Below, piece after piece: positions 9,685 to 49,339 of a DNA stretch of 64,000 bases. The DNA is from Capitulum mitella (taxonomy: Eukaryota; Arthropoda; Thecostraca; Pollicipedomorpha; Pollicipedidae). The position numbers and the translations under genes are program-made. Positions within the stretch are counted from its first letter, which is position 1; the number at the start of each line of letters is the position of its first letter. The notes beneath the pieces are model-generated. The model did no database searches, had not been told where the DNA came from, and worked only from the letters and a program-made list of their open reading frames with translations. The stretch spans positions 12,436,144 to 12,500,143 of the forward strand of contig CP099849.1 in NCBI GenBank assembly GCA_030062745.1, written 5' to 3'.

Positions 9685-9760
<76 letters not shown>

Positions 9761-10135: not shown

Positions 10136-10223
10136 CCGGGGTGGCACCGACATCTTGGCTTTCCGCTGAAGTCCTCACACGTGTGAAGACAGCCACCATT
10201 GTTGAAAGTGCAGGAATCAACAT
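10136..10223 (-). CDS. MEGF6-like gene, exon with first part of a split EGF
   Basis: The acceptor is GTTTGCAG and the exon opens AT-GTT-GAT-TCC-TGC. Five of the six EGF cysteines are present (residues 5, 12, 16, 25, 27), with N-N-G-G-C-L-H-T-C and C-R-C-H-P-G. The best donor is CCCCGG|GTACGT, a phase 2 exit straight after H-P-G. The tail of the module, with the sixth cysteine, must come from another exon between here and 4370. Reading on through the donor gives no plausible EGF tail. All other EGF exons of this gene carry whole modules, so this is an intron that cuts a domain. The hydroxylation consensus is broken (P where F/Y is expected). Confidence 0.82.
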
Positions 10224-18951: not shown

Positions 18952-19074
18952 GCTGGCACGTGCGGCCGTCGAAGCCGAGCTGCATGCCCTCCGGGCAGAC
19001 GCAGACGAACGAGCCAGGCGTGTTGACGCACACGTGAGAGCAGCCGCCGTTGCTGTCGCCGCACTCGTCCCAGT
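18952..19074 (-). CDS. MEGF6-like gene, first calcium-binding EGF exon found
   Basis: A phase 1-1 exon with acceptor TGCCGGCAG, opening AC-TGG-GAC-GAG-TGC, and donor CAGC|GTGAGT. With the G supplied by the previous exon it starts D-W-D-E-C. Cysteines lie at residues 5, 12, 16, 25, 27 and 40. [15 protein letters not shown] is a typical calcium-binding EGF core with a hydroxylation consensus. It can accept either the signal-peptide exon (27397-27466) or the EMI exon (46521-46627), since both supply one G. As I recall vertebrate MEGF6, the equivalent module carries a very similar H-x-C-V-N-T-P-G-S core and follows the EMI region. Confidence 0.9.
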
Positions 19075-20228
19075 CTGCCGGCAGAGAGTGACGTCACCGG
19101 TGGCACGGGTCACCAGGGGCACACGTGGGCACCACTAGAATGATTACGCGATCTATGACAGTGTCTCAGACTTTGTGAACGCTCTGAGAAGCCCGGCGCA
19201 TCGACTTCAGGCCAGCGGGTAAGAAGTAATTAAAAAATTAAAATCAGGAGCTGAAAATCAGAAGCTGAAAGCATGCTTTGCCGTCTTTAACCGCATGGGA
19301 TTTCGTACATGGCGATCACTCGGAAAAGTCCAGATCGAAGTGTTTGTTAGCCACTGGATCGGTGTGTCCAAGCTTCAGAGCCCAGCACCCGAATATGTCA
19401 ACCGATCGCGATACAAATGGCACGATCGGATGTGCCGACTCGGCGGACAGATCATGGCGTATGCTAAAAAGCGATTCGTGGTGTGTGGCAAGTGCCACGT
19501 GTCGCGAGCCGGACCTCTGCAGCATTCGAATTCAGGGCATAGGTCAAACGGTGGGTGCCGATGACTCGAGACTTGGTGACAACATGGGCCTTACTTGTGG
19601 GTACTCGCTTTTTGGTCGGCATCTATCCACGATCCACGTGGCGATCCACAGGCACGTGTTTTGATTTGGACTCTGGGACTTTGGAGTGCCGTCATCAGTA
19701 ACTTAGGCGGCTGAAATTTTCTAAGTAGATACACCAGCTCTAGGGTTATCAAATGGCACCCCATATGATTGTGAGGGTGCAAAAGGTCACGTACAGCGCG
19801 CGTGCGCCTCTTTTATACTCGTGTTTCCTATGGGCCAATTGCCGAGACGCAAACGACGCAGTTCGGTGCGATGATGATGGCTTGGAAAGGCGGACGGGCA
19901 GCTGGGCAATCACCTTCGATGAATTCAAGCCGAGACAGGGGTGCAGCTTGTCGTGAAGCGCTAAGTGCCTAAGTGATTAACACACCTCCTTCACTGCCGC
20001 AAAACTACAACCGCTGGGGTGCTGAAAACTGACGGGCAGGAGCACGCGATGCGTGTCATTCGATACATGTGGCTGTTTTGCATGCCAATAGCTTCAGCCT
20101 GGTGTGTGCGGGACGCAACTGCTGAGGTGTGCCCCTTTGCGTTTCAAGCCTGGCGACCCATACAGCCGGGCGATATATGCAGTTTACTGAGTGATCCCAT
20201 TCCAGGCGGCTTCAGCAAGCCAGCGGCC

Positions 20229-20385
20229 GTGGTGGAGTGGCTAGGGTGTATGTTTGTGAATCCGACAGCACAGGTTCAAGCCCTGCCGGAGGTGAACGGT
20301 TTTCATAACTCATTGTGCGCTGTTGCTGGCCGAGTTTGTGTCATGCCATGTCTGTGAATCCGGCGGCGCGGGTTCGAGCCTTTTA
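20229..20385 (+). repeat. Tandem tRNA-derived SINE-like units
   Basis: The first unit has TGGAGTGGCTAGGGTG (A-box-like) and, about 35 bases on, CAGGTTCAAGCCC (B box). A second unit repeats GAATCCGGCGGCGCGGGTTCGAGCC about 80 bases later. The same GAATCC-to-B-box block occurs in both, with GCTCATGGTGCGC/ACTCATTGTGCGC following. Cloverleaf pairing is poor, so these are SINE parts rather than tRNA genes. Confidence 0.55.
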
Positions 20386-21919
20386 TAGCTCATGGTGCGC
20401 AGTTTTTCTGCAGATTTCTTTCACTGTGCAAGTATGCCGTGGCGTGAATGGTAGGATGGCTTCCAAGCATCTCTTACCTATGACTGGAGGTACTTCTTGC
20501 ACTAAGCGAGTGTACAGGTCTGTGTGCGATACACAGCTTCGATTTTGACTGCAAACTAGCCGTGCAACGAATTGGTTCGCTTCTAGTTGGATAGCCAGTG
20601 AACCAACTTTTCGGACGAATTGAGATGACATCGTTGGGTACCACACGAATGCTCAGCCTCTTCAAACGCCGGGCAGATAATCGTGGTAATTACTACATTC
20701 CGTACTGAAGCCGCTGCAAGATATGGTTTTTTAGTGCGCTCTTTCGGGAAGCCTGATGGACCAGTTTCCAATTGGGCGGCAAGTATCAGGCGCCTATGTT
20801 AGCCGAAACAAAGACTGCAGTAATTTCGGATGCGCAGAGCACAAATTCACATGTTTATCGATCTATATCGACAACTGTTTTGGCTGCGTTTGGTCTGCAG
20901 TGTGCATGGATGTGTGTGCAGTTTCGAAAAATATGTTCAAATGCCTTCAAACTATCTAATTTTTGGATGATCACAAATGAGAATCCGTCAATCATGTCAT
21001 CTGAAGTGTTACAATTTAACAAATATTGTTTTCGAGCAGTATTTTCGGAAGAATCGTCTCAGATATTCATGCACTTGTTACTAGCATCACGGTCGTTTCC
21101 TCATACCGAAAGTCGTCTTTCTCGGTGAAACACAACTTTGTCCATAAACTCAACAATGAACTGACAGCCTGGCTGGGTATCCGACATTCCGCATAAATTG
21201 GATGAGAACGTGTTGACTGTGTTTCAGCCTGACATCACACGACGTTGCGAAACAAAATGCATAAAATAATCACATACGACCTTTTATCAACCGACGCTGC
21301 AAAAAAAGGAAACTTCAAATGCACCAGCTGAGCACTCCATGACATCGAGTTCTTACATACTATTTCAGATTCATGTGGATGTCTCCCGAAATAATGTTTA
21401 GAAAATCCTTTGTTTGAAACATGATCGCGCGAGGTGATGCCATGAGGAAAACATTTGCATCTGCATCTGCAGGACCATCTGCATCCATTACCGTCCGGAA
21501 GAGCAGACGAGCATGATGCACATGTCCTAAAATGATGAAGACAGACCGATGGAGCTTTGTCACTAAGAGGAAGCAAGATTCGTTTGCAATAAGAACTATG
21601 TTAATTTGCATATACTTTGCTTTTGCGGAGACAGAACACCCATATTTCGTTCAAATACATCCCATTAAAAATATGGTGCATATCAGGCTTCTGTATGAGT
21701 TGATTACAATATAGTTTGGGAATTTTAGCAAAACTTTCATCTTTCGGAGCGAACGTTTGAAACCTTTATGGAGCCTCTATATTAAGAATGGTGCATTAGT
21801 TAGCCAAAGTATTTTAAGCTGTTTTTCTTTTTCCATCTCTTCCGTACACAAAAATGCTCATCTCACAAACGGGGACTCTGAAGCCCTCGTATTTCATCTT
21901 GATCAATGCAACTGAGCGC

Positions 21920-22940
21920 ACGAAGCGCTGAAATCGCCGCACTGCGCCGTATTTGAGCCGAATGCGTCTGGCGCCGCACGTTCGGCAGTATCGTTTATCA
22001 CAGGAGCGGCGCCTTCAGTCAGCACCCGATAACATGACGGCCGTCTGATCGTCCGCCGCCCAGCTAAAGGCGAACACGCCGAACACGCGGGCGTGGCGGC
22101 CGACTACGCGTCTCAGGCGCTGCACCGATCCATCGCCGCGCCAGGGGGCGCCGGGCGCGCCTCTCGCGGCCGGCGGACGGCCGGTTTTCGGCTATCTCAC
22201 GGGTGTCCGCAGTGCGCCCAGCGTCCCCGCTCGCTGTGCAATGTCACACAGGCTGGACACGTGCGGCCGGCAGGGCGGGACTGCGTCAGCACGGTGCGGT
22301 GCGGGTCAGACGGATCACAGCGCCCGCCGCTATCGTCCGTGCATCGCAGCGGCCTCCATTGTGTTCACTGGATTGGTGTGGAGCGGGTCACGTAGGTCGT
22401 TGCAGGTCAACTGCTGGTGCCGCAGCGCCAAACGAGTCTAGACTAGGTCTGAATGAGGTTTCAATTTGGTTGAAAGGGGCACGGCGAGATCGATGGGCAT
22501 TCGGCGACAGAGACTGATACCATATGGCCGGCGCGGGTCCGAAAATCCGCACGTCATTCTGAAATCGAATATGTTTGTTTCTCGTCGGCACGTTCCCGGG
22601 ATCAACCAGCACTCCCGCATGAATCTGCAGCGAGGAGCGGCACTCGAGCACGCGCCGATCAGCGCGGCTCCACCCTCCACCGCGATCACCGCCGCTGACA
22701 GCCCGTTCACTTTACACTGATGACGTAACTGTATAGCTCAAGTGGCGTCCGGTCGGCGGCCGCAGAGGGTGGCTACATCGACGCTGCCGCCCCGATCGCT
22801 GCCGCCGAGATGCCAGGACACGTGATTTGTCTTGTCGCCCCGCGCCGCGGCGCTTCCGGTACGTGGAAGCTGGTCCCGGGGTACTGGACGCCCCCGACAC
22901 GTGACACCGAGCGGATAATTCGCCCCCACAAACGCAAACA
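21920..22940. other. GC-rich, CpG-rich island without assigned gene
   Basis: CpG-dense sequence inside an intron. Open frames occur on both strands, but this is expected in GC-rich DNA. No domain, splice-bounded exon or tRNA was recognised. Confidence 0.5.
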
Positions 22941-23131
22941 CGCTCTCGGAAAATGGTCGCCTCCGGCCAAATCATTTTTATGGAAGCAAGAGCACAACGA
23001 GAGGTTAGGGATAACACGAAAAATCATACTTCTACTGTATTATGTGTGAAATAACAATAGCGACCTTTTAAAAGATTTAGGCGTCTTATGGAGTTCAGGT
23101 CAAGTCCAGCAAACTGCGTTTTTCTGGGAGC

Positions 23132-24296
23132 TTAGCACGCGCACTGGAAGGGGAGGGCACGTTTTATTGAAAATCTCGTTTTTGTTTTTGGAGCTCGTTT
23201 TTATTTTTGAAACCCATTTTTATTTTTGAAATCCACCTGTTTTTACTGAAAATCTCGAGAAATGATCAAAGCTGTTCTTTGCTACTTTGTGACATTTAAG
23301 ACAACTGAATAACTCGTCGACTGACGCAAAAAATCGAAAATCGACCGGAAATCTTCGAAGTTTGAAGCATTTGAAATCAAACAAACATAAAGAAAATAAC
23401 GGTTGTCGCTGACAAATGGGAAGGTTGCGAAAGGACAAGCGTTTTAAATAAGACTACAGTTTCAACATAATCGGCCGACATCATTCGGGTATAAGCGATG
23501 GATGTACCAGGACCAAAGTCAAGGCCAGTAAGGGTCATGGTCATCAAAGGTCAAGGGCAACTATCTTGTGACTTGGTCCAGATTTGCTTTGCAACATGTC
23601 AGTTTGTATGAAATATGCATTCAAAGACCTTAATGAAAACCACGCTTGGTATGCGCATGTATGCATATACAATTTCCACATTTTACAGCAATCAAATCGT
23701 GTAATTGGGTAGCGACTTTCTCGCAAACAGTTGACAAAACTTATTTTAGGTCAAAAACTTCATCCAAGGTCAATGACAGCGCTTTACTTCTTTCGACCTT
23801 GCGGAGCTGGTAAATGCATGAAGTGATTAAATGTACCGATCTTGGCTATCTTCACTGAAAATAAGCAAAAAATGCGTTTAGCGCCCTTATTTACACTCAA
23901 CCTACACCAGTATCCCGTGCTTGTCGAAATCTGATTCGCAAAAATGAGAAAATTATTCCATAGGTCAAAGACCTGTCATCACCTCGACCCAGAATCCTCA
24001 TTCAATACGCCAAATGAATGGAAATTGTTGTATTCCACGCTTTAACGATCAAACGCGCGTCCTTTTCTCGTTTCGTTCGAAAAGCCGGACGGAACGACCT
24101 GTAGGGGCCGAGGAAATGTCCAAAGTTAACATTTTCGTCCCCATTTGACCTTCGAGATATTGACCTAAGCCCATGAAAATTGCACACTATGCACATTTTT
24201 ATGGCCCCCTCTACCCATAGAGTTTCATGTCTCTAACTATTTTCGTTTCCGAGATCGGAGGGGCACTTTTGTGCCCCCTTCCAGTGCGCGTTAGCG
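23132..24296. mobile_element. Non-autonomous DNA element with about 27-bp inverted ends
   Basis: The left end (23132-23160) holds CGCGCACTGGAAGGGGAGGG. The right end (24271-24292) holds GTGCCCCCTTCCAGTGCGCG, its reverse complement with small gaps. The inside has AGGTCA-type half sites (23515-23560, 23745-23770) but no ORF. A small GGGGCAC-TTTT-GTGCCCC hairpin sits at 24260-24277. It ends about 20 bases before the next element. Confidence 0.65.
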
Positions 24297-24319
24297 CGAA
24301 ACCCCTTCCACTGCGCGTC

Positions 24320-25507
24320 TTAACCCGCGCCCGACTGTCGGTCGGCGCTATGCACGCCCGACTGGCGGGTTGACCGGCCCCCTCTAATTCACGAACAAGT
24401 GGGTCGCACGATAAAAATAAGCACACCGTTGGAAAGTTCATGTCGAATAGAGCTCGAAACTAACCTCATATTTAGTTTAGGGTAATATGTAAGCCATTTA
24501 CGCCCTACACATGTTTTCTCACAGCCGCCTGCACGAGAAACGGCCTGGATGTCAAGGGCTGTGACTAATAAAGTCCAGATAAAGGCACCAGCGGGCAGGT
24601 TGGAGTCCGCAAATGCCGATACACGTCTGACCAAATTTCCCTGATTTGTTTAATATATATGCGGAAACGATGAGTTACGGACACGGCGCTTTTCGTAACG
24701 CCTCACGGCGGGCGCCGTAGGAACCCCATAGGAACGCGGTATGAAATGAACGGGAACTAATTTTAGCGTTATTTTCACAAAATATGCATTCCCAAGCGTT
24801 GTTTCTTTATCCAAGTGGTTCTTGTGATGAGGTTCTCGTGATGTGGTTCTCGTGCGTAAATGTGGAAAAACTCATTAGTTATCAGTTTACACAACTGAGG
24901 TTTTATTCGCGAGAGCCTTTTTCTTTCCAAAATGTTCAATCTTTCGAAATTTTGTTCAACTTCTTTGTATTATTCGCGACTGTGCGAGTCAGTTATGCCA
25001 TTTTCCGCCCCATCTGAGCCATTCATCGCTGATTTTGATGGCAGTGAATTTAGACTCATAAAAGTTATTCGTGAACTGGCCTCAGGTCAAAGGTCAGAGG
25101 TCATTGAGACTTTGCCTATTGAAGAAAACTGGATGTCTGAATCTCCTAACGCTCAAATTTTTATAAAAAAACGGGCGTGACCTTAAGTCAATGGCCCGGG
25201 TATTTCCAAAAAATCCGAGATTGCACATTTGTTCTATGTATCAAAATCTGTAACCCTTGAAAGTTTTATTGTTCCGTTATGTTTTGCAAAAAAGTTCCAG
25301 GACGCTAAACTTTTTTCGGCATATGTCCTCTTGATCTGACCTAGGTCATAAGCCTTACTTGGCCTGAGGTCAAAAATTCGATACAAGGTGCAAAGATAAT
25401 CAACAAAGGGGTAAACCAAGCTTCGTGGCGCTCCGTTTGTTCGTTCTCTCACATTCTCCGAAAACCTCAGGGGGGTCAACCGCCTCCCGAGTCGGGGGAC
25501 GGGTTAA
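24320..25507. mobile_element. TTAA-flanked non-autonomous element, family B copy 2
   Basis: TTAA occurs at 24320-24323 and 25504-25507. The element is inverted relative to the copy at 16896. For example, CGCACGATAAAAATAAGC at 24412 is the complement of GCTTATTTTTATCGTGCG at 18011. The ends start CCCGCGCCCGACTG and finish GAGTCGGGGGACGGG. A perfect AGGTCAAAGGTCA motif lies at 25084-25096, with another AGGTCA directly after it. Confidence 0.72.
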
Positions 25508-25810
25508 AAGTACATTAAAAAATACTGTCTTGAGAATCCTTTTATTTAACTGCATTTTCATTGAAGTACATTTTCCCTTCATGGATTTTGTAATACAAAA
25601 GGATATTTGTCGATCCGCTTCAGCATTGAACACATCAGCAGTTGCAGGTTTAAACGTCAAGCGTCCACCTATCCTTCACTTATTACGGAGCAGTTAAAAA
25701 GCACGAAAAAACGTCTGAAACAAAAACATCACTCTCGGAATAGATACATGGATATACGAGTGTTGTATATGTACGATTTACGAATGCTGTACTCGTATGT
25801 TGTATACGGC

Positions 25811-25815
<5 letters not shown>

Positions 25816-25869
<54 letters not shown>
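25816..25869. repeat. (AT)n microsatellite
   Basis: An uninterrupted AT run of about 54 bases. Confidence 0.97.
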
Positions 25870-25870
<1 letters not shown>

Positions 25871-27249
25871 CCTTAATATACTATTTGCCAGTACATTTCG
25901 AAAAAGCCTGCGAACTAGTACAATTTTGATGCCAATACAAACTTTATCTATCTTCTGATGAAGCCTTTATGGTCCTGTGCCCGGTGGTTACGAAGGTTAC
26001 TTAAACTTATCAGAAACGTTATATCTTAGCCGGGCCGTGCCGGCCACTCAGTTTTATTTTTTCTGCTGGATGAAGTGAGACCTACTCGACCTCCTGCCTC
26101 GCTCATATGGGTAAGGATCGCAGGCATATTGTCTGTTGGTGGCGTTCCTCCTTTTGCGCAATCTGCGAACATAACGTCATCTAACGGGAAAAATCATTTG
26201 AGAGTGTTACGAAGGCGTGATGCATCCATAGTATTGCTTTATCGGAATGATGCTTCACTATTTCTCTTCCGTGTTTTACCCATATATGCGCTATCATTTT
26301 CACCTTCATGTAGGTACAGCTCGAATGAGTCTACCCAGCTCCAAAATGCATCCTGTAAACCAGGAAAACTTCAAATCAGGCCAGCGTGTCATTTTCTGTT
26401 GAGGAACCCTTAGCATTCCTATAGAAAACTTTTACAATGCTAAGGACAGACCTGATGAGGTCCGCTTCAGCAGCGCTTACACCTCCTGAGCAATACAAAC
26501 AAGTCTGTTGTGAACTTAGATTACAGGAGGATTACAGGAAGAAATTCACATCGGCCCCTAAGCCGCTGTCGTAGACTAATCTCTCTAGCATTGTATAAGG
26601 CGTTGTTTATGCTCCTTTGTCTCAAGGCAATATATCATTCTGTCAAAATGTTGAGTGTATGCCAGGTGATTTACGGAACAGGTGACGTTCGTGTCAAAAG
26701 TTTTGAACATGCAAATTAGGTTTCCTGGACGCATTATACAAAGCAGTTGCGTTCAAGCACCACGCGAGCAATAAGAGTGATGACAAATGGTTCAACGGAT
26801 GAGCGATGTATCATTCGAACGGCATGTGTATTGCGTCCATCACTTACAGCATCCACGGGCTCCGGCGTTCATTGATGTGTTCTGGGCAGCTTACTGTCCT
26901 GATTGCATGACGGGCCACGAAAGGCTATTTTCTTAACCTATAACTTAACATATGGGCAAAGATAAAAATGATTTCGAGGTACCGATCTGATATTTGTTAT
27001 TCTCTCCGTCGGTATTTCCTTAATGACATGGCATGTGAAAAGACAGCACTGACCTGTTGCAACCGCTCAAATGTCGTCCATAAAGCCAAACGGGGGTTCT
27101 TCATCACGACTTTCTCGATAACATCTCAGCGGTTTAATATTCTGGGCCAGTGTTACACACGGAGCCATGCGGCTGACATCAATGAGTCTGCTCTGAATGA
27201 ATTACGTTGCCATACGTTTCACCGTGACCTCGCATCCCAGACATCGCCA

Positions 27250-28060
27250 TTGTTCAAACCGTTCCGTCTGTCTGCGCCCAGATGACAGAGCCTGGGAGCG
27301 CATCCCTCCCTCTCAACACACGCACACCTTTCCATGCACGTGCGCGGTCTTGACACCCTTGTGACCGTGGGCCGCAGCCGGCGACGGTAGACTTACCAGG
27401 CGCGCGCCGACACCTCGCGGTCGCCACCACGGTCAGGAGCACGGCCAACACGCACCAGCGCTGCATTGTGAACCACGAGTCTGCACGGAGTCCTCTCAGT
27501 CCACCCGCGGCCGACTCGAGTCTGAGCGGCGGTCTGCTGCCGCACCACCGCAGACAGAAGCGGAGCGCGGTCGGCCCGACTCTGCGAGACCGGGGTCCCG
27601 GTCTGATGCGGCGCAGGTCCCGGTCCGGTCCGGCGACGTCTCAGTCCCGTCCGGCAGCTCACTGGACCATCCCGCGCGTGTCGGCGTCCTGTGCAGCGCG
27701 CGGACGGCGTGCAACAGGGCCCGGCCGGCTGATCGCACGTTCTAGCTGGTGGCCGCCGGCCGGCCCCCTTTTCTATCGGCGGCGTCGGCCGCGCCGGCGG
27801 CGCTCGGCCGCGGCGGGGGGCCGCGCCGGCCCGGGCGGGGCTGCCGCTGGAGCTGGCGCCGGCTGAGCGGGGACGGCGGCCGGCAGCCCCGGCGGCCGTC
27901 CGTGTCCGATAGTCTCTGACGCGTCCCGAGACCCGACCGATCGCCCAGCAGGGCGGTGCGGCTCTGCCTCGTCCGACAGACGGACGCCGGGACGTGACAG
28001 GATGGCGCCGCTCCGCCGGCCTCCTGGACGCCCGGCACGTGGCGATTCCTGTTTACATGA
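27250..28060 (-). promoter_or_regulatory. GC-rich island around the internal first exon
   Basis: Strongly CpG-rich sequence spans the ATG-containing exon and about 600 bases upstream of it on the minus strand. CpG-dense islands mark many animal promoters, which supports transcription starting here. I see no clear TATA box. Promoter activity is inferred from composition and from the first-exon structure. Confidence 0.5.
27397..27466 (-). CDS. MEGF6-like gene, alternative first exon with signal peptide
   Basis: The frame opens at an ATG (27466) preceded by TTCACA. It encodes M-Q-R-W followed by a hydrophobic run C-V-L-A-V-L-L-T-V-V-A-T-A, then R-C-R-R-A-P, a classic cleavable signal peptide. 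The donor CGCCTG|GTAAGT is close to ideal. The exit is phase 1 with a final G, so it joins the EGF exon at 19074 to give R-R-A-P-D-W-D-E-C. It lies downstream of the EMI exons in the same gene direction. The simplest reading is an internal promoter making a secreted isoform without the EMI domain. If the EMI exons belong to a separate gene, this is simply the gene's only first exon. Confidence 0.78.
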
Positions 28061-37000: not shown

Positions 37001-38145
37001 AGAGCTTTTCAGAGCCAGCATAGATTCAGCGTGATTTTAGTTACCGATGACCTTACGAGACAGCGAACTATTCATATTTTGATGCTGAAGAGGGCACGTT
37101 CATTGCCATAAAGTAACCTGATACTGCAACGCCGTGCTACCTTGACGTATAACGTATAACGAAATAATCCAGCACGAACGTGTTGGTACTAGATTATCTC
37201 GATATCGGGAACGGATGATTCCAGACATTCCAATGCTCTCTGTTCCTCAGAGTTCGTTATGTTGGGTGAGGGGTCAACAGCAGTTGTAATTTTGACAGAA
37301 AAGTTTGTAATACACCAAAATTTGTTCTCTACTACAGGCACGCGAACAAACATTCTGAGCCTAAGTGCAGCCGCAAACCAGCATCACCAACATCGTACGA
37401 ATGATCTTCTGAACATGCGCCAACGTTGCAAAATAGATATTATGACAGCGTTGTGAGTTTGTAAATGTGAATTTATGCAAAGGCAAAGCACTTGGCAAGC
37501 TGTAGTTGCCTCGTCACCTACGGCGCTCTAAATGAGAGGTCCATCACGCTTTCACTGTACCACTTTACTACACTGCAAGGTAAAAAGCAGAAACGAAGAG
37601 GGAGGGAGCGAAGGGCAATTTAAGTTCTACCCAGTCTTAGCTACAGCCTTCTGGATTACGGGCCCGTCACGCTTTCACTGCGTCACTTAGCTTCACTGCA
37701 AGGCAAACATCAGAAACGAGGGGGACAAGGGGCAAATGAACTCCTGTCCATATCCATGCAGTCAGAACCCAAAGAATTATGAAAAAATACTGCATGGATA
37801 GCCAAAGCAAAAGTTTACAACTATGGAGCATATCATATCGATGGCATTCCCTATCCATTCTCTAAACACTGACATAATATACCGGATGCAAAACGCAAAC
37901 CACATGCAGTATACCTAGCTCCTTAGTAAAATGCGACTTCCCTTTTCCCGCAGTCGAGATATTTCTCTGGTATCTAGTACTACACACATCGGAGGAAACA
38001 GAAGAGCTCTTTGCATGATTATGAGACGACCGATTCCGAAGAGTCTTGCGGGGTGGCGCTCCGGGCCTTGTGCCTAGTGGTGCGATCAGTGGCCCTGACA
38101 GAGCCATCTACTGCTGACAACAAAACGTGAATCGCGACCACGTGC
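28061..38145. other. Large intron/intergenic stretch, mostly without recognised content
   Basis: No exon was recognised. GC-rich patches occur at about 29520-29880, 30240-30770, 32820-33200, 35590-36130 and 36300-36720. They have long frames on both strands but no domains. A TTAA-type element lies at 33296-34532, and a CCCCA pentamer run (four to five units) at about 35313-35337. Confidence 0.45.
33296..34532. mobile_element. Diverged TTAA-flanked non-autonomous element
   Basis: It starts TTAACACGGGGGAATTTGGC with GAGGTTTTTCTGG, as in family B, and ends near TTAA at 34529-34532 after GGGGAGGGGGTGCGTC. The inside carries AGGTCA half sites, including a perfect AGGTCAAAGGTCA at 33630-33642 and further ones near 33925 and 34265. 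There is no coding capacity. The right boundary is uncertain because a second TTAA lies at 34452. Confidence 0.5.
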
Positions 38146-38217
38146 AGCAGAGTGGCGCAGTGGAAGCGTGCTGGGCCCATAACCCAGAGGTCCGTGGATC
38201 GAAACCACGCTCTGCTA
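38146..38217 (+). tRNA. Initiator tRNA-Met (CAT)
   Basis: A 72-base cloverleaf starting AGCAGAGTGGCGCAGTGG and ending in GCTCTGCTA. The acceptor stem pairs AGCAGAG with CTCTGCT. The anticodon stem is CTGGG/CCCAG around a loop with CAT. The T arm holds GGATCGAAACC, with A in place of T at position 54, a hallmark of eukaryotic initiator tRNA. No intron is present. A TTTTAA stretch about 10 bases downstream could serve as a pol III stop. Confidence 0.96.
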
Positions 38218-38377
38218 CGATCGCGTCGTTTTAACCCAGCCCCAGCCCGAACGGGGAAAACAGCAGTTTTCGGCAGCAACTCGATCAAAAACATGTGAAA
38301 AACTAGTTGACTCGAGAAAACATCATCAGCATCAGCATGCATCATCAACGGCAAAACTATATCTTCCTCGGCATCAT

Positions 38378-39596
38378 TTAACCCTATTCCCGGTAGGGGG
38401 GGGCGGAATCCCCCCCCCCCTCGGGTTTTTTGCTTGCCAATTCCAGGCTTTTTAACGCAGCTTCACGAAACTTGCTGACTTTTCCTAGCTATTCCTTCTA
38501 CGTGCCGTGACAAATTTCGAAGTTCTATTTTGCTCAGAGGCGGAGCCAGGCAACGTTTTTGGGAGGCACCTCAGGTCATTTTTGGCCATGTTGAGGGTAA
38601 AAGGAAAATGTCTGCCAAAAACAGAGTTTTGAAGATAGAACTTAAACCTTTATATGAATATATAACTACATAGTTGGGCAATGTGCATATGTAATTTTGT
38701 TTATCTGAGGCCACTTTACAAGGTCAGGTCAAGGTCAAAAGTCAAAATTTGTTTTTTTCGCAATAATTTCGGCGCCGTTTTTTAAAATGCCAAACCCGGA
38801 ATATATATGACGTAGAAAGGTGTCCTCTGCTTGTGTACCAAGTTTCAGCTTGATATCAGGTCGGGTCACGGAGCTATGACCTAAAATGTCAGTGCGCGTA
38901 CCCTATATCGCAAAAGCCAAAAAATGAATTTTTTGGAATAGAGTGAATTCAATCGATTAAAAACGTTTACAGATAATACTGAATGCACACGACATCATTC
39001 CAGGTGACCCCAAGGTCACTGGAGGTCATTTAAGGTCAAAGGTCACAAGTTGATCTGAAGAACGTGTGACCATGACAGTTCCCCTTTTTTTATGTCCCTG
39101 GCACCGCCTATGCGAACATTATACAAATATTGTAATGCGATTTGTACTTCTTTCGCATAACATGACTAGCAGAAGCTAAAAAAGTGTTTTGGCCTCTTTT
39201 GTTCATTCCGTTATTAGAAAACTAATCCCCCTATTTTTGAAACCCTGTGAACGCCCATGAATTTTCTCAAAATTTCAAATTTGCATACCCATGGTAAAAG
39301 CCCTATTCATAATCTCTCGATTCATGCCAGTTTCATCGAAATCGGTCCATAAACAACGGAGTTATAAGAAGTCAAAAAGTACCCCCCATTTTGACATTTT
39401 TGCTCCCCTGTATCCACAAATTTCAAAATTTTGAAAATTTCTTTTTATAAAAATGTAGTTCACGTCACGGCAAATCGATTTCCGTTTGTTGCGATGAAAT
39501 CGGATAAGTAGTTCTCGAGATCTCAGGGGGGGCCGAATCCGCCCCCCCCCTGCCGGGAATCGGCCATACCGTCTAGCCCTCCCGGAATAGGGTTAA
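38378..39596 (-). mobile_element. TTAA-flanked 1.2-kb element, family A copy 1 (inverted)
   Basis: TTAA duplications lie at both ends (38378-38381, 39593-39596). The ends are inverted, starting CCCTATTCCCGG, and are followed by G/C-run hairpins (GGGGCGGAATCCCCCCC-like at both ends). Length is 1219 bases with no ORF. It is in opposite orientation to the copies at 40385 and 62235. Half sites cluster at 38712-38745 and 39003-39046, with a perfect DR1 (AGGTCAAAGGTCA) at 39033-39045. The target and terminal CCCT suggest a piggyBac-type MITE. Confidence 0.82.
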
Positions 39597-40384
39597 ACGT
39601 ACGGGACCTATCGCGCTGGCAGAACACTGCATCGCATCACACTGTGAAAGGATTTAAGTCTAAGTGACTTATCGCAAATCGGTCCTAATGCTATGCCACG
39701 CCGTTTTTATCATATTTCTTTTTCATATTCCCCGAACTTTTGCAACCGGAGCTTCAGACTTTTCACAGGCGGTTCAGAACGGTAACAGAGTAAAAGGATG
39801 CTTTCATTTTTCCCCTTCTGGGAATGCCTGAAAATCAAACGTTGGGACTGTTGTTCGTAATGAAACTGGAAAAAGTGCAGGCTGGTGGGAGTTAACCATC
39901 ATGAACGCCAAACGAGGATAAGGACCAAACCACTGAGATGTAAATTCTTGTGTGCATGTATGTGTACAGCCAACTGCCCACACCAAACATCGTAATGTTT
40001 GGACATCGTTTTTTCTCTTGACGACATACCAGTTTAGGGATCGGTGACACCGGAGAAAAATAACCCTATCTGCGGGGAGCCGTGAAAGAACAAGCTCGTA
40101 GGCCAGGTACGCCGACAGCTTTTCTGACTGGCTGATCTTAACACCTAAACAACACAAAGCTCAATAAAAAAAATGTCCCCAGTCGCACCAACTTTACAAA
40201 CAAGCCTACAACCATACATTGTCTTGTGGGACGGTCTGCTGTCAGCAGTGTGACCATATCTAGGGAAATTTCCCCTGTCTATGCCAATCGGCTCGGATCT
40301 GGGAGTCTGGAGACACAGACCGAAGTCTGGGGAAATCCCACCACTGTGGATATCTAACTAATTTCATCAATTAATTTTTACAAA
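39597..40384. other. Spacer between inverted elements
   Basis: A 788-base spacer between two inverted copies of the 1.2-kb element. No gene or repeat was recognised; the longest frames lack domains. Confidence 0.5.
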
Positions 40385-41575
40385 TTAACCCTATTCCCGG
40401 AGGGCTAGACGGTATGGCCGATTCCCGGCAGGGGGGGGGCGGATTCGGCCCCCCCCTGAGGTCTCGAGAACTACTTATCCGATTTCATCGCAACAAACGG
40501 CAATCGATTTGCCGTGACGTGAACTACATTTTGATAAAAAGAAATTTTCAAAATTTTGAAATTTGTGGATACAGGGGGGCAAAAATGTCAAAATGGGGGG
40601 TACTTTTTGACTTCTTATAACTCCGTTGTTTATGAACCGATTTCGATGAAACTGGCATCAATCGAGAGATTATGGATAGGGCTTTTACCATGGGTATGCA
40701 AATTTGAAATTTTGAGAAAATTCATGGGCGTTCACAGGGTTTCAAAAATAGGGGGATTAGTTTTCCAATAACGGAATGAACAAAAGAGGCCAAAACACTT
40801 ATTGGCTTTTGCTAGTCATGTTATGCTAAAGAAGTACAAATCGCATTACAATGTTTGTATAATGTTAGCATAGGCGGTGCCAGGGACATCAAAAAGGGGG
40901 AAATGTCATGGTCACACGTTTCTCAGATCAACTTGTGACCTTTGACCTTAAATGACCTCCAGTGATCTTGGGGTCACCTGGAATGATGTCGTGTGCATTC
41001 AATATTATCTGTAAACGTTTTTAATCGATTAAATTCACTCTATTCCAAAAAATTCATTTTTTGGCTTTTGCGATATAGGGTAAGTGCACTGACATTTTAG
41101 GTTAGCTCCGTGACCTGACCTGATATCAAGCTGAAACTTGGTACACAAGTAGAGGGCATCGTTCTACGTCATATATATTCCGGGTTTGGCATTTGAGAAA
41201 ACGGCGCCGAAATTATTGCGAAAAAACAAATTTTGACTTTTGACCTTGACCTGACCTTGTAAAGTAAACTCAGATAAACAAAATTACATATGCACATTGC
41301 CCAATTATTTAGCTATATATTCATATAAAGTTTTAAGTTCTATCTTAAAAACTCTGTTTTTGGCAGACATTTTTCTTTTACCCTCAACATGGCCAAAAAT
41401 GACCTGAGGTGCCTCCCAAAACATTGCCTGGCTCGCCCTGAGCAAAATAGAATTTCGAAATTTTGTCACGGCGCGTAGAAGGAATAGCTAGGAAAAGTCA
41501 CCAAGTTTCGTGAAGCTGCGTCAAAACCCTGGAATTGGCAAGCAAAAACCCGGGGGCGGATCGCCCCATGGTTAA
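40385..41575 (+). mobile_element. TTAA-flanked 1.2-kb element, family A copy 2
   Basis: It begins TTAACCCTATTCCCGGAGGG and ends at TTAA 41572-41575, although the right terminal repeat is damaged (CCCCATGG where CCGGGAATAGGG is expected). It matches copy 3 (62235) block for block and copy 1 in reverse. A perfect DR1, read as TGACCTTTGACCT, lies at 40936-40948. An open frame at 40414-40620 is a shadow of repeat sequence and recurs in copy 3. Confidence 0.82.
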
Positions 41576-42226
41576 AGCTACCTCCATGCGCAAAGTGATG
41601 AGAACATCGCTTCTCTTTCCTTCTTAGGCAAAGTCGTCATCATCTGGTAGCATATTACCTCGTATTTTATGTTATAACTTACCTCTGTCGCAACGGATAT
41701 ATTAGCCTTTTCCCTGACGCTGTGTGCAAATACGCAACATTTCTAATGCCAAATACCTGTACAAAGAAAAATGTATTAAAATGGATAAACAAAAGCTCAA
41801 AATATCCTCTCCCTCCATTATTTCCAAAATATTTCCGGCTGTTCATTTGTGTCGTTTACTGATCGTACCTCCATGATTTTATCCATTCTGAATGCTGTAC
41901 CTACATGCGTACGGACGGAAACAGTATCAGTACAATGCTGGGATATGGAAGCTAACGAAGCACGGTACCTGAGAAATGGCTCATCAAAAAGGGAAATTTT
42001 AATCGAAATTTTGAGAAATGTGGCCAGACGCGCGCGGTCACACCGGCTGTCAGCCCGTTCCGCGCGACGTCACAGGCCTGAGAGCCACTCAGAAACTGGG
42101 GGCGTGAGGTAACCCACCGGGACGTCAACCGCCGACCGAAACAGCTGACCGCGCCGAGTGGTGCAATCAGCAGCGCTCACGGGGTTGGTGACTGGTGAGG
42201 ACAAAACGTAATTTAGTACTACCCGC

Positions 42227-42299
42227 AGCAGAGTGGCGCAGTGGAAGCGTGCTGGGCCCATAACCTCAGAGGTCCGTGGATCGAAACCACGCTCTGCTA
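42227..42299 (+). pseudogene. Initiator tRNA-Met pseudogene or damaged copy
   Basis: It is almost identical to the tRNA at 38146-38217, but an extra T in the 3' strand of the anticodon stem (AACCTCAGAGG versus AACCCAGAGG) disrupts pairing and makes it 73 bases long. The upstream flank is also alike: both copies have a GTGC-ATCAG block and a GACAACAAAACGT/GGACAAAACGT block before the gene. The copy therefore arose by DNA duplication rather than from an RNA. Confidence 0.8.
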
Positions 42300-42369
42300 A
42301 AATTACGGATTTTGTTGGGATCCTGAGAGCCCTGCGTCCGAACAGCACGATACTGAATGATGGCCAACA

Positions 42370-42540
42370 GTCTATGCACTAGTCCGCCACCTTAGGTGGA
42401 CTAGTGTCATGTCAGCCTTAGGCGACTACCATGTTCTTTCTGCTTCCCTGCCGTGGCCAAACATCCCCACTGCCAGCCACCTGAAACGACCTTACTCTCC
42501 TTGCAGTACCTCTTTAGAGTACTGCAAGGAGACCAGTGTC
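42370..42540. repeat. Two adjacent short hairpins
   Basis: One hairpin is ACTAGTCCGCCACC...GGTGGACTAGT near 42380-42407, with one mismatch or bulge. The other is TCTCCTTGCAGTAC...GTACTGCAAGGAGA at about 42496-42532, with a 9-base loop. They could be terminal parts of a foldback element. They lack rRNA or tRNA features. Confidence 0.6.
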
Positions 42541-45500
42541 GTACAGACGACGTCACAAGGCGCCGTGGTCTCTGATTGGTCGGACAAGTGATGTCAATTT
42601 GCATCTGCTAACTGCATTGTCAAGGTTCTCGGTCAGTCAACGTTGATGTCTGTCGCCTATGTCTTTGGAAAACGATTTTAACTAATCACTAGACAGTGTT
42701 GAGAGAATTTTTCGACGCAACCAAATAGAAAGGGGTTATCAGGTCACAGCTTTTCAGTTTTCAAATTCAGGAATCAGGTTTTGCATTCAATACCCAATGC
42801 GCAGCAGGCTTGCAAAAACTGTCATCATGCAACATCAAATTTGGAAGCCGTCACGAAACAAAAGGTGCAAAATACAGTAGCTTCATGACCGGTGATTCCA
42901 AAGATGAACGCAGTAGTTAATCACGTAGACTTAATAGTCATGCGTTTGTTACTATTTCGTCACTATGGTATTTTTGTTCCCGAAAGCATGGATATGTTGA
43001 AACAGTCGGCCGCTTTTGTTCATTTTTAAGGTAATAATTGGCCCTGGACCTCACGGACCACGATGACCCAGGTCATTCAGTGCTTCAAAATGGAAGGTCA
43101 TGTATCTACGGACCGTATTAGTGAAAGAACTGCGGTGCACCATTTTTGGAAAAGAGCATCATGAAGCGTGTTTTGTCAAAAAAGTGGCCAAAGACAACAT
43201 GCATAGGTTATACGTTCAAATGACGCCATGGCCTTGCTTTCAGTCTTTCTAGATTTCCGCAGTTAAACTTCATGACAGATCAATGTTTTTCACAACTTGT
43301 TTTTTTTAAATAAGCTAGTACATTCAAAACACAAGCGCTTACTACACACAAACGTAAATTAATACGAAGCAAGAAACAAAAATGACTAATGTGACTATTC
43401 AGGCTACACATCGCACATGATGAAATATTTGATATTCGACAAAGACCACATGAACTTCTATCAAGATCTGCTCGAAAGACCAATACCACAGTGTTAAAAG
43501 TGGTAATCATGATTAATTATGTGTTCACGTGATGACCAAGACTGCGATGACCTATAGATCTATACCTATATCTATACGTATACCGATACCCATACACCTA
43601 CCTATACGATGACCTATACGATGACCTTATTTGTCCAAAAGTAGCTCTGACGTTGAGGCGGATATAGTGCGCAAATGAGTTTATTATTCTGCTTCAGCTT
43701 GAAAACTATGTGGGAAACACCAAAGGTAGAATGAAAATACCCCCTGCAGTTATCTGCGGATCAACCCGGCACCGCCTGGGAGCGTCAAATAAGGCACCCC
43801 TCGGTTTTTCTTCAATAACTTCTGAACAGTTAGAGTCAACCCAACTAAATTCTCCTTTTCTGTTGAACAATCAATTCTAGATATTTTGACATCAAAATAA
43901 TTTTCATGCTATGTCAGGTCATGGAGATATGACGTCATAAGTGAACCCTTACATACCTCGTACTTGTGTTTGCCTACTCAGACGGTGGCGCGAACATGCT
44001 TCGTTATTTTACAATATTTGCCAGTATAATGCATGGATTATTTGGGTTTGGATAGGAAACGGTCACCAAAAGAATACACAATCGTGGCATGTCAACACTG
44101 GACGCTATGCTAGGTCACATGCATGATGGCCATTGAACTCATTCGCATTATGGTTGATAGAAGTTGTTGCCGCTGACTTTTCCCATCGTTCAAGTCAGAG
44201 AAGTAACTCTACATGTGCCTCTTAGCAACGTTCACCAAATGCAACGACAGGTCAAGTCAGGTCAGGTCACGTCAAAGGTAGATGTCAAAACGGAACGAAA
44301 TGCAACGTTGTCCGTGGAAGGTCGTTCAATAACAGCACACAGCAATTGTTGTTCCTTGTCAGAAGCAGAAAAAATGGCTAATTGTCCTGGCCTGACTTGA
44401 CCCTGACCCACTAAAGAGCAGACAGAGCATATTTAATTATCATGAGATGCCATTTCAGTTATGTACTTGACGCAGTTAAGAATCCCAGCGAGTAATGTTT
44501 GTTCTTTGTCAAGAAGAGTAATGCGATCTTATCTGACCTGACCTAGACGGACCTTGACTGTATGAAACGCATATAATGCAAAACTGGTCATTACAAGGTT
44601 TTACTTTCATTCGTTTTGTCACGTAGATCAAAACGGCTGCGAGTAAGTATCGATTTTTCGCATATCAAGTAAGAACAATATTTCGCTTGATCTAGGTTGA
44701 CCTTGACCTGGCATTTCTAACATTTTGGCATGCATTTGATGCAAAAGGTCGCGACCTTTCGTTTGATACCCAACTGAAGGTTCTAAGACCACAATTGCCG
44801 ATGATATGAGGTACAAACTGATGTCAGTTTTTCCGACGGCGTGTTGCGCGTTTTGCGTAACCTGTTACGCCACCAGCCAGATGACCAGGGATTTATGGTG
44901 TTTTCTGAATCGCAAGACTCAGGGCTATCGACTGGTGGTAGACCGGTTCAGATCCGACGGTTAGATCCTGAGATAGTAGGGGATACCCTTTTTGACATCC
45001 CCTCCCCGGCGGTGGCGGGTACTAAAACACGCCAGGCGGTGCCGGATGAGTGTATTTCTGTAAAAAGCACCACTTCTCCTGCATCCTTGCCGGAAGGAAT
45101 CACTTTTTCTAAGTTCTTAGTAGTGTAATCTTAGTACAGTACTTAGAAACTGTGGCAACATTCCTGTTCATTCATTTATAACTACGATCTACAGCCGAGA
45201 CATGGATCAAGTACAATTTGTGTATTTGAGTCATAGTCGACGTCAGTAACTGCGACGAGACAATAGCCGTTTTCACGAAGGTAAAGTCTCAGATATGACC
45301 CAATATCATCCCTTAAATATTTGGTCCCAACAGCAAAAAGGAAATTTTCCTAAACACCATGTAGTAATGTAATTGGTTTAAAACAGTTGTTACATTGAAA
45401 CCTCCAATGTCGATTTGATGCTATTTCAGGGCTAAACTCTCAAATTTCGGGGATCATTTCGGGTCACATGTGGAATAACACTGATAAATCTATCGTCGCG

Positions 45501-46179
45501 AAATGGTTATTGTGAAAATGGGTTGAGTATCACCCTCGTTCACGCGGGTCTGCTCCACAGCTGGACCGCTCCAAAAGCTCGACAGCGGCACAGCTGGATT
45601 ACCACACTCGTCGCAGAGCTAGGCGTGCTCTGGAACGTCCCGTCGTGAGGACGTTCTGAGAACTCCCGGTACGTCCCGGCGTGCTGGCGGCACGACGCAC
45701 CGCCATGACTGCCAGGGCTGCAGAAGTCAAAGGGCACGGACCGCCGCTCGCAGCAGGTCGGACTGACACGCTCCGACTGTGTTGTTCAGCCGTCTGGAAG
45801 ACTGAGGAGGGTGTTGCCGGAAAATGTCGGCACGACTGTTGGTTCCAAGCGCAGACCTTTGTCAGCATTGGATGAATGCGGCTCGTCTAAATCGGTCAGA
45901 TTAAAATGTTGCCGATTTCCTAATAAATGCGCTGTACATTCCATTTTTTGCACTGAGGACTAGCCCTGCTTCCTTCCCTGTTTGTATCCTGCTTGGAAAA
46001 ATCTAATGTCTCGCATTAAATGTACGTATTTTCGACCTGCCGCATGTATAACGGCGACGGAAGTCTTCAAGATGCGTGTGACATAGCACATAAGTATGTA
46101 CGTACACGTACATGTATAAAAACATATTAACATAAATATACATAAATGTATAATATATCAAATTATATATGAACATAAT

Positions 46180-46180
46180 T

Positions 46181-46214
<34 letters not shown>
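46180..46214. repeat. (TA)n microsatellite
   Basis: A TA run with one G interruption, inside an AT-rich stretch with repeated ACATA/TACGTA motifs (46085-46180). Confidence 0.93.
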
Positions 46215-46520
46215 CGCTAGAACAGCATTTCGTTTTTCTACGTATTTTTTCACATGCAGCTCGAAACCCACGCCAGCCTTCTTATCATCAACGAAACGTC
46301 AGTTTTGCCCATAATTGCATCAAGCATCAGGTTTCGACAGTTCTGCAGTGCGAGATATCGAAAATGTGGAAAATAGTGCATGTTTTCCTTTAGTGCAACT
46401 GGAATCATCACAACTGGGCCAGGAAAATCTGTTCTGGATGCTTCGGCGAGAACTGTGAGAGTAATCCCGGCCAGTTACATGTGTCACGCTGCGAGGTCTG
46501 GACTCGCGGCGCCGCCTCAC

Positions 46521-46627
46521 CTATCGTGCAGCCTGGATCGTGTGATCTTGCCCAACCGGCGCAGCACTGGTACATGAGGCGTACTCTGGGCAGGAACAGC
46601 TTCCTGTACCGGAACACGTGCTGCCCT
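46521..46627 (-). CDS. MEGF6-like gene, EMI domain exon (C-terminal part)
   Basis: The acceptor is CGCTTTCCACAG and the donor is ACGATAG|GTGAGG; the entry is phase 2 and the exit phase 1. The peptide runs G-Q-H-V-F-R-Y-R-K-L-F-L, then R-L-M-Y-Q-C-C-A-G-W, and ends H-D-P-G-C-T-I. Y-R-x-x-F/Y...Y-x-C-C-x-G-W followed by G-C is the conserved end of EMI domains, as in MEGF6, MEGF10, EGFL7 and NimA proteins. The 107-base exon fits the 75-base exon at 49265-49339 (phase 2) on one side and the EGF exon at 19074 (phase 1) on the other. In MEGF6 the EMI domain also precedes the calcium-binding EGF array. I did not find the extra EGF that vertebrates have between them. Confidence 0.8.
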
Positions 46628-47177
46628 CTGTGGAAAGCGATAACGAGCTGTGGTAGGGGGAGGCAGGATTAGTATGTATCTCATGCACAAAGTGCTTCTT
46701 GCACCGAAATATGTGATGTCCTCTCCGTGTGATGTACAACAGAAACATGAGGTAGTGTCTGCCGGTGCCTTGTTAAGGCAGTGTTACAGATCAGGACAGA
46801 AACCTAGCGACAAACTATCGTAAAGCGACAACAACGCGAAACGAAGGTAATATGCCCTTGCCAGGAGAGCCGAGAAAGAGGTGAAAGCGTCGTGATGGCA
46901 TAATTACTGAAACACCCCTCCCCCGAGTGTGGTGAACTAGACCCTCAAGAGGTACACCACGGGTGCAGATACCTGGATCAGAACGTAGGAACGAAGTGAG
47001 AGCTTGTAAGCCTGATCGCTATGATTTCTCGCCGGAACGGCCCCCGGTTCGCGAGAAACCCTCATTGTTTCGAAAGCTATACATCTCAAGGGGAATTATG
47101 CGATCAGAGGTTGCCAGAGGTCGTCTTACGTCAAATAACCGTGGATATTTTCGGCGAAAACCTTTTTTGTACATAAG

Positions 47178-47181
<4 letters not shown>

Positions 47182-47232
<51 letters not shown>
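47182..47232. repeat. (AT)n microsatellite
   Basis: An uninterrupted AT run of about 50 bases. Confidence 0.97.
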
Positions 47233-47234
<2 letters not shown>

Positions 47235-48243
47235 AGCTCTGAATATGGCTTCAAGAGCGTTAGCATTAACACGAAGGTCTGATTATATGGTGCAGAAAAA
47301 TGTCACTTGGGATCAGATTTCGTCATGTCAGACAAACATTAAAATGAAGGGAAAATGCCGCCTTTTTGTACGGATAGGAAACTCGTCCTGTTAATGCTCA
47401 TGAAGTGCTTCGACCAAAACTAGCTGAAAATGTATCTGCAACGCAGATCAAGTCTGCATCACAATAAGTCGAAAAACAGTCGACCAAGGTTGGAGTTTCG
47501 ACATCTCTAGGTCGTGCGTTCCTGCGTCTGTTGCATCATTTGCTGTGTTACCACTGATCAGATACGAAGCGACATCACATCTCATTAAATTTTCCAATCC
47601 GAGGTGCCTGCTATCCATAGCAATCATGTGCGAATCATTCCCTCCACATACCTTACTCGGGCGCCGGGCACTGGGTGAGGTAGTGACATAAAAACTTGGC
47701 ATTTAATGGGTAATTTTTTATGCCAGAGGAAGGGGCTTTTTATTAACCAAAAGAGGATTTAACTAGGTATTAAGTGAAAGGTAAATTCTGTGACAGAAAT
47801 GGTTCCATATTTAGAAAGAGGCCATCGGCGTAGTTCTTATGACTTGGTATCAAACAATGTGCGTTCAACCAGAAAACAAGAGGAATAATTCAAACGTTCA
47901 AACCGGCTACCCCGGGTTAAAATGTGACAGGAACGTCCTTTGCAACTACGGTTCTTATGTCTCATTAGCGCTTTCACAGCACATGGCGTTACATACCGTG
48001 CTTTCCAGAATCGCAAACCACACAACTATCATCCGTTGCAGGACCAAGCATTCGGTGTCGTATGTGGCCTGACCCCAGGTCACGGGTCAAAACGTAAAAT
48101 TACTCAGTTGCAGAACGCACAAATCATCAATGTGTATATTTAAAAGTTCAAAACCAAACTTAATACGACAAGATGACTAGACAAGACGAGGGCTTTTCAC
48201 CGCAGTGTTTTGATTTTCTCTGTCACCTTTCATTCCGTGACAG

Positions 48244-48310
48244 CGGACGGTCCCTGAGGGCCTCCTCGTCTGAGGAACGACGCAACTACCTGCACCGGGG
48301 CGAGGGCCAG
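48244..48310 (+). CDS. Possible plus-strand internal exon
   Basis: A pyrimidine-rich tract (TTTTCTCTGTCACCTTTC) ending in CCGTGACAG is followed by 67 bases open in one frame (G-R-S-L-R-A-S-S-S-E-E-R-R-N-Y-L-H-R-G-E...). A good donor, GGCCAG|GTAAAT, comes after a whole codon. Third positions are G/C-rich. It would be phase 2 in and phase 0 out. No partner exon or domain is known, so it may be chance. Confidence 0.25.
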
Positions 48311-49264
48311 GTAAATGCTCTACTTGTGGTCTGCACCACGGTGATTTTGAAATGCGGAGCCGAGGCACAAGAAAAAATTGCCGTTGAAGCAATAGGCCAC
48401 TTAATGACCTTTGTCTTATCGTCCTACGCACGTCGAAGCCCTACGTACTTCGAAATGCTACAGAAGTCCCAAGACAGTCTGGTAGATTCGCAATCCCTCG
48501 CCGGTAGCCGACTGTTTATTTGGTCTGACAGCCGCGTGGCGGACACCATGACAATCCACTTAGGTTAATCCTCCGCGCCATATATTTCGGAGTGGCGCGC
48601 TGATGTAGGGGACAGGAGGACGGGCCGCCGTCAGGGCTAAGCCAAGTCAGAGAGAATAATGGTCAGGACCAGCAATAAATATCGCCAGTCGGCTCGCAGG
48701 GGCAAGATACACATCTGTCGCCCGAGCTTAGCACTTCACAAATCACGGAATCCGTCGGGGGCGACCCGACGGAGGTGCGCTATGGGAGATGAACGAGACA
48801 GATCTGGCAACGTGAATAGGGACAAACGATAACCAGGCAGAGGACATAAATAGGTATGAATGGTCAACAAACGGCCACAGAAGGAAATGTAGAAACTCTT
48901 TTTAACAGAGCATTTAAATGCCGGCAATATTAGCGTCAAGTATCTCACAAGCGCCGTTCACAAATGACAGCCAGCAAGTCGTGGGGAAAGCAACACCTAG
49001 ACGTCATCAATGCCTTTCGTATGCACCGGGACGCATCCATTGGAACTTAGATCCCATTTTAGTGACGGTTTTTTTTCTTATCAAATTACAAGGAAGGAAA
49101 GCCCCGTCACTTTGACAAAAGCGCCCCTCCAGCCAAACAGAATGCTGGGCGCTCCTCTGTGTATGAGTTGAAGAGGACCGGGATCAAACACCGCTTCAAC
49201 ACACCGATGGATATGTCCCATGTCATACGGTATAGATTGGACTGAAGCTACAGGTGGGACTTAC

Positions 49265-49339
49265 CTGTGTTTGAAGTTGAATATTTTCGGGTTTCCGTGG
49301 GGCTGGTAGTCGACAGCCTCATACTCGCAGACATTTACC
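49265..49339 (-). CDS. MEGF6-like gene, EMI domain exon (N-terminal part)
   Basis: Flanked by acceptor CGTTGTTGCAG and an excellent donor CACAG|GTAAGT. The 75-base exon is phase 2-2 and encodes V-N-V-C-E-Y-E-A-V-D-Y-Q, then P-H-G-N-P-K-I-F-N-F-K-H. EMI domains typically begin N-V-C. Joined to the exon at 46627 it gives F-K-H-R-G-Q-H-V-F-R-Y-R in frame. The combined piece has cysteines at the start, the CC pair and the final G-C, but lacks the two or three middle cysteines common in EMI domains. Either this domain is short, or another phase 2-2 exon lies between. The exon supplying the first two bases of the first codon, and the signal peptide for this form, were not found upstream. Confidence 0.65.

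Follow-up and report, generated by a model that had tools for sequence, protein, structure and literature searches.

MEGF6 is a single gene that joins, in order, a signal peptide, an EMI domain, calcium-binding-type EGF repeats and MEGF-type EGF repeats. In MEGF10/11, Draper and CED-1 the EMI domain is followed by MEGF-type EGF repeats. One study places MEGF6 in crustaceans, among them shrimp, and in scorpion, did not find it in insects, and gives it a basement-membrane role in planarians (PMC7059952). For human MEGF6, three lung cancer papers give one splicing event, an exon skip. Alternative promoters (1a and 1b) with alternative first exons have been described for the IgLON genes Lsamp, Ntm and Opcml (PMC5288359). 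Here, a minus-strand gene was analysed in a 64 kb window of the Capitulum mitella genome (C11:12436144-12500143; "the window" refers to this whole stretch), with genome-wide searches that covered 477 Mb in 16 contigs. It is predicted to be one MEGF6-like gene with two alternative first coding exons, one leading to a secreted protein that carries an EMI-like head and the other to a secreted protein that lacks it. We put the probability of this reading at roughly four in five.

Compared with these systems, the gene is like MEGF6 in its predicted signal peptide, its EMI-like head ending in CC-x-G-W, its calcium-binding-type EGFs and, further down, its MEGF-type EGFs, and unlike MEGF6 in possessing a second, putative internal signal-peptide first exon. 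The head is presumably shorter than that of human MEGF6 and lacks the middle cysteines that we take the latter to have. Both this gene and its paralogue on contig C6 differ from MEGF10/11, Draper and CED-1 in carrying an intervening run of calcium-binding-type EGFs. The predicted use of two promoters with alternative first exons resembles that of the IgLON genes, although the protein families differ. The parts of the gene on which the argument depends are given below, with positions upstream of the window written as continued window positions (a further 60 kb upstream was examined).

71669-71530, minus strand, 7.5 kb outside the window: distal signal exon, phase 2, ending ...ALQLRKG-AT/gtgagt
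49265..49339, minus strand: EMI-like exon 1 (EMI1), 75 nucleotides (nt), phase 2 in and phase 2 out, (M)VNVCEYEAVDYQPHGNPKIFNFKH(R)
46521..46627, minus strand: EMI-like exon 2 (EMI2), 107 nt, phase 2 in and phase 1 out, (R)GQHVFRYRKLFLPRVRLMYQCCAGWARSHDPGCTI(D)
27397..27466, minus strand: candidate internal alternative first coding exon, 70 nt, phase 1 out, MQRWCVLAVLLTVVATARCRRAP, a putative signal peptide
18952..19074, minus strand: first EGF exon (EGF1), common to both forms, phase 1 in and phase 1 out, beginning (D)

A first-pass annotation of the window had proposed EMI2 and the internal signal exon as interchangeable 5' ends of the gene. Both exons do end in phase 1, and each can be spliced to the EGF exon at 19074 with the frame kept (...D-W-D-E-C); the phase agreement by itself is a one-in-three chance event. 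The final G that they were said to have in common is indeed present, but it equals the donor consensus and adds little as evidence. The coordinates also bear out the placement of the internal exon inside the long intron, 19 kb from the EMI-like exons, and its counterpart on C6 occupies the equivalent intron position. Splice sites were scored with a generic consensus. The donor of EMI1 at 49265 (CAG/GTAAGT) reaches 8.7, the top score of the minus strand of the window and the sole one of at least 8, and the donors at 27397 and 46521 score 6.6 and 5.3, respectively (7 minus-strand donors reach 6 and 33 reach 4).

The proposal of a two-ended gene is supported by comparison with the paralogue, which bears both ends. 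On C6 the plan is distal signal exon, EMI1, EMI2, internal signal exon and EGF1, an order identical to that on C11. EMI1 has one strong relative in the genome, at C6:13162872-13162952 (63%, 15/24 residues identical), which is also 75 nt long. The sole strong relative of EMI2 is found at C6:13164475-13164582 (67% over 36/36 residues); the two exons are identical at 23/35 residues, both are 107 nt long, their phases are alike and the frame is open, and a third genome match to EMI2 has an E-value of 1.18 and contains a stop. When the EMI-like exons are combined, 38/59 residues are identical between the copies and codon position 3 is the least conserved. Given the same lengths and phases and the relatives on C6, the EMI-like exons are genuine coding exons, and the gene that contains them has been duplicated. 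Further down, the best non-self match of EGF1 among the 66 listed is C6:13185879-13185998 (63%), with both EGF1 exons beginning in phase 1, and that of a MEGF-type EGF stretch is C6:13212704 (53%, second of 14). The two signal exons assigned to the paralogue are as follows.

C6:13141799-13141902: distal signal exon, phase 2, ending ...SLELRKG-AT/gtgagt
C6:13176705-13176774: internal signal exon, 70 nt, phase 1, in the EMI2-EGF1 intron, MLCCRLAAVLLATSVAARSDSGL

These comparisons bear on the possibility that the EMI-like exons are decaying, with the C11 copy making the internal form only. Decay would agree with a short module that has no Pfam support and with the low acceptor score at 49339 (1.4) beside the stronger site at 49355 (6.4), the phase of which does not match the distal exon. 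It is opposed by the open frames and equal exon lengths of both copies, by the level of residue identity with its low conservation at codon position 3, and by the top-scoring donor at 49265, and we regard it as improbable. A start of EMI1 at 49355 was considered for its higher acceptor score and rejected, as the start position conserved in the C6 copy matches 49339, which also suits the phase 2 distal exon. An in-frame ATG at 49395 sits within the pyrimidine-rich tract preceding the acceptor.

Signal exons were sought as an ATG followed by a hydrophobic core and a donor, the first settings being a core of at least 2.4 and a donor of at least 4 on both strands of the 64 kb. A candidate distal signal-peptide exon occurs in both copies, 21-22 kb upstream of the EMI-like exons. 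An initial scan of C11 between EMI1 and the ATP13A-like gene further upstream gave two phase 2 candidates (81863-81769 and 71669-71530), and a looser scan of the 29 kb of C6 reaching EMI1 gave nine rows, among which 13141799-13141902 was the sole one in phase 2. Joined to EMI1, the distal exons read LQLRKGM-VNVCEY on C11 and LELRKGM-PNVCEY on C6. The local alignment score of the two distal peptides was equalled in 0 of 5000 shuffles.

For the internal exon, the first scan returned a single minus-strand candidate in the 64 kb window, 27466-27397, and none on the plus strand. A wider scan with a core of at least 2.2 and a donor of at least 4, the core cut-off having been set after the C6 candidate had been noticed, covered 608,000 strand-bases (174 kb of C11, 40 kb of C6 and 90 kb of C5, both strands). 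It gave 21 rows, six of them in phase 1 and two in phase 1 with a GC content of at least 65%; these two are the 27466-27397 exon and its C6 counterpart, both of 70 nt. Each adjoins a local GC maximum, that of the window on C11 (500 bases from 27501, GC 0.77 against a mean of 0.48) and that of the 30 kb examined on C6 (500 bases from 13176101, 0.754). The GC peak upholds one half of the earlier description of this site as a CpG-rich island. The other half, a special CpG mark, does not stand: the window as a whole shows no CpG depletion (observed/expected ratio 0.99), and the island is given no weight in the argument. From a direct reading of the peptide sequence, cleavage of the C11 signal is likely to fall between A17 and R18; in both internal peptides residue 15 is A or V and is followed by A17 and R18, which is consistent with this site. 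The two exons are identical at 37/70 nucleotides, whereas codon shuffles average 25.7 (p 0.003).

Two groups of results weigh against the reading of a single two-ended gene, and the first concerns the EMI-like module. The module has an NVC start and a CC-x-G-W end (VNVC...QCCAGW on C11, PNVC...ICCAGW on C6), which we take to be the N-terminal and C-terminal signature of the EMI domain (PF07546). The middle cysteines, which we likewise take to be a feature of that domain, are absent from the joined EMI-like exons. The module of the window has no match to the Pfam EMI model at E<=1, and a longer construct has none at E<=10, so the name 'EMI domain' used in the first-pass annotation is not sustained. 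The C6 module scores 7.7 bits (E 8.2) and does not reach the required 25 bits. Searched over the barnacle's own genome, the Pfam EMI profile matches six other places and neither copy of the module; one of the six exceeds the cut-off together with its neighbours. The profile matched 0/14 control genomes, which provide no positive control here, and in the PDB the module had 0 matches at E<=10. A missing middle exon was sought between 49265 and 46627, where ten candidates have a W and two Cys with mostly poor splice sites; once these sites were scored, five weak phase-compatible candidates were left, none clearly conserved with C6, and they were rejected for now. As no convincing middle exon was found, the module is taken as short, and on its sequence it is EMI-like rather than a Pfam-grade EMI domain.

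The second group concerns the signal exons. Searching the genome with the distal peptide of C11 returns that peptide alone, so the C6 distal exon was first picked out by position, and its ending then identified it. The internal signal peptides are identical at just 7/23 residues, with an ungapped score that gives p 0.058 against shuffles. At E<=10, neither of them retrieves the other from the genome at the protein level, and DNA and protein comparisons of the two loci miss both exons. The scan of the C6 EMI2-EGF1 intron (core of at least 2.2, donor of at least 3) covered 19.4 kb, all but 1.6 kb of the intron; it gave five candidate rows, one of them in phase 1, and a lone phase 1 candidate is thus not rare. 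The C6 internal exon also has a core of 2.21, just above the cut-off of 2.2 adopted after it had been sighted. With the peptides so weakly similar, the case for the internal exon depends on position, length, phase and setting. A match to the internal signal peptide on contig C8 (E 4.66) was treated as chance after a partial look at the locus.

It could be asked whether the signal-like exon at 27397 arose by chance or is dead, or whether it starts a nested gene that bypasses the EGF exons. Such an origin would account for the weak resemblance of the two signal peptides and for the failure of sequence search and BLAST to link the copies, and the TATA-like motif described below was found post hoc. 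Set against this, both copies share the intron, the length of 70 nt, the phase, the predicted cleavage position and the high GC content, and they are the sole two phase 1, GC-rich candidates of the wider scan. In addition, 40/40 minus-strand open reading frames of at least 80 residues in the EMI2-EGF1 intron of the window are without a Pfam match at E<=0.01, a test that shorter exons would escape and that did not take in the plus strand. We find this explanation unlikely, and prefer the internal exon as a first exon of the MEGF6-like gene.

The EMI-like exons might instead form part of another gene, upstream and with an end of its own, in which case the MEGF6-like gene would start only at 27.5 kb. 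In favour of this, the two exon groups are 19 kb apart and Pfam fails to recognise the module as EMI. Yet the phase 1 donor of EMI2 demands another exon in both paralogues, and the only strongly conserved downstream exon found, to 18.9 kb, is EGF1, which begins in phase 1. This was seen in a protein-level comparison (E<=0.05) in which 18.9-72.3 kb of C11 was set against the C6 EGF1 and a further 50 kb of C6. It produced 86 rows, of which 67 came from a transposon-like block and 19 from elsewhere, the latter being headed by EGF1 (2e-17), EMI2 (1e-16) and EMI1 (3e-10). A non-collinear match (E 1.1e-4) ranks next. The remaining rows are weak, extending to 0.04, and include some other-frame EMI1 and EMI2 matches and one EMI1 echo near 1e-3. 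The order of the exons is the same on C6, and EMI before EGF is what we would presumably expect of MEGF6. The C6-shared order and the EMI2 donor make a separate gene unlikely, in agreement with the first-pass annotation, which had placed the EMI exons in the same gene as the EGF exons.

Under the preferred reading of one gene with two starts, transcription from a distal start at ~71.7 kb would join a signal peptide to the EMI-like pair in phase 2 and then to the EGF exons in phase 1. Transcription from an internal start at ~27.5-27.8 kb, within the EMI2-EGF1 intron, would join a second signal peptide directly to the first EGF exon. By its choice of promoter a cell could then secrete a protein with or without the EMI-like head, provided that both promoters fire and both signals are cut as predicted, and the head may alter the binding partners. 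In C11 and C6 alike, the frame stays open as far as the end of EGF1 in the head-bearing distal form and in the headless internal form, so that two in-frame first coding exons reach one shared exon in both paralogues. The two EMI-like exons total 182 nt, and skipping both consequently breaks the EGF frame in either paralogue: with the distal exon joined straight to EGF1, the EGF frame is lost in C11 and a stop is met in C6. Skipping EMI1 alone keeps the frame in C11 but leaves half a module. Because the skip breaks the frame, a secreted, EGF-framed product without the whole head would need the internal first exon, and promoter choice and head would be coupled.

The remaining features of the gene within the window are as follows.

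27467..27777, minus strand: 5' leader and core promoter, as proposed for the internal form, with the TATA-like GATAGAAAAG at 27777-27768
27659..27670, minus strand: short upstream reading frame of three codons (MVQ, stop) within this proposed leader
119..10212, minus strand: six further EGF repeats of the MEGF6-like gene, at 10212, 4344, 3729, 3140, 1375 and 226

Within the 600 nt that precede them, both internal exons have a single copy of the pattern GAT-N(1-3)-AAAAG, at positions -311 and -360; it was met in 0.12% and 0% of 5000 single-letter shuffles. Having been picked after sight, the TATA-like motif offers a hint of a promoter. The 5' flanks of the two internal exons also share a GC-rich alignment, the score of which was matched in 1/200 shuffles and which is too compositional to be given weight.

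Seven EGF repeats are present on the minus strand of the window, and 5/5 of those submitted to Pfam reach the FXa_inhibition cut-off. The first EGF exon scores 53 bits with FXa_inhibition and 33 bits with EGF_CA, both above cut-off. The gene runs past the window, with exons from ~-0.6 to -22 kb which we take to be MEGF-type EGF exons from their spacing; two such stretches that were scored match Pfam EGF models only below the cut-offs. The predicted order of signal peptide, EMI-like part (below the Pfam cut-off), calcium-binding-type EGFs and MEGF-type EGFs is found on both C11 and C6. A SCUBE-like identity, in which the signal peptide leads straight into EGFs, was considered and is disfavoured by the downstream MEGF-type EGF exons; CUB domains were left outside the scans. 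A 26-bp minisatellite lies at 222-447 of the window. Read on the minus strand, its unit looks like the acceptor of the EGF exon at 237 together with the opening codons of that exon, the edge of which seems to have been multiplied within the intron.

With regard to the age of the pair, a gene that we take, from its motifs, to encode an ATP13A-like P5-type ATPase lies upstream of the MEGF6-like gene on C11 (~85000-91100, minus strand, outside the window). The best paralogue of an exon of this gene is at C6:9297698 (9.30 Mb, 56%), 3.9 Mb away from the C6 MEGF6-like gene, with a third match on C3. Two C11 neighbours with best paralogues on C6 fit chromosome-scale paralogy, for which two genes are thin evidence. 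A whole-genome duplication more than 247 million years old has been published for barnacles (PMC11331182), and the C11 and C6 genes may be copies derived from it. If the pair does date from that event, the two-ended layout would be at least as old, both copies having retained it over more than 247 million years. That a two-promoter head switch predates the gene duplication and was retained by both copies, with the head tied to the distal promoter by reading phase, is a proposition for which we consider the chances evenly balanced.

Full-text searches of the open-licence literature, within the text that they returned, found no EMI-less MEGF6 form made from an internal promoter. Alternative first exons are of a known kind, and within the literature searched an EMI-less form from an internal promoter would be new for MEGF6. 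As the two forms share their EGF exons and each promoter could be separately followed or removed, the locus would allow a clean test of the role of the EMI-like head. That both paralogues have the layout suggests a use for each of the two forms. One end of such a gene could be overlooked by single-transcript gene models or by Pfam EMI matches.

A number of other observations were made at these and related loci. The transposon-like block extends over ~38.0-45.3 kb of the window (38387-45021, minus strand) and C6:13146958-13150687, with many short matches of ~55-100% protein identity. It is located in the EMI2-EGF1 intron on C11 and in the interval between the distal exon and EMI1 on C6. A non-collinear protein match between C11 68173-67841 and C6:13139417-13139617 (46% over 35 residues, E 1.1e-4) was also recorded; it lies downstream of the distal exon on C11 and upstream of it on C6, in both cases outside the EMI2-EGF1 intron. 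On contig C1, a Pfam EMI match of 22 bits, below the cut-off, occurs at C1:21588005, and MEGF-type EGF matches follow within 20 kb (C1:21600390-21607415). This locus is perhaps a relative of MEGF10/11 and Draper. Finally, EGF repeats of the type found in the MEGF6-like gene are densely packed at C5:11647921-11653993, where one open frame of 859 residues contains many of them.

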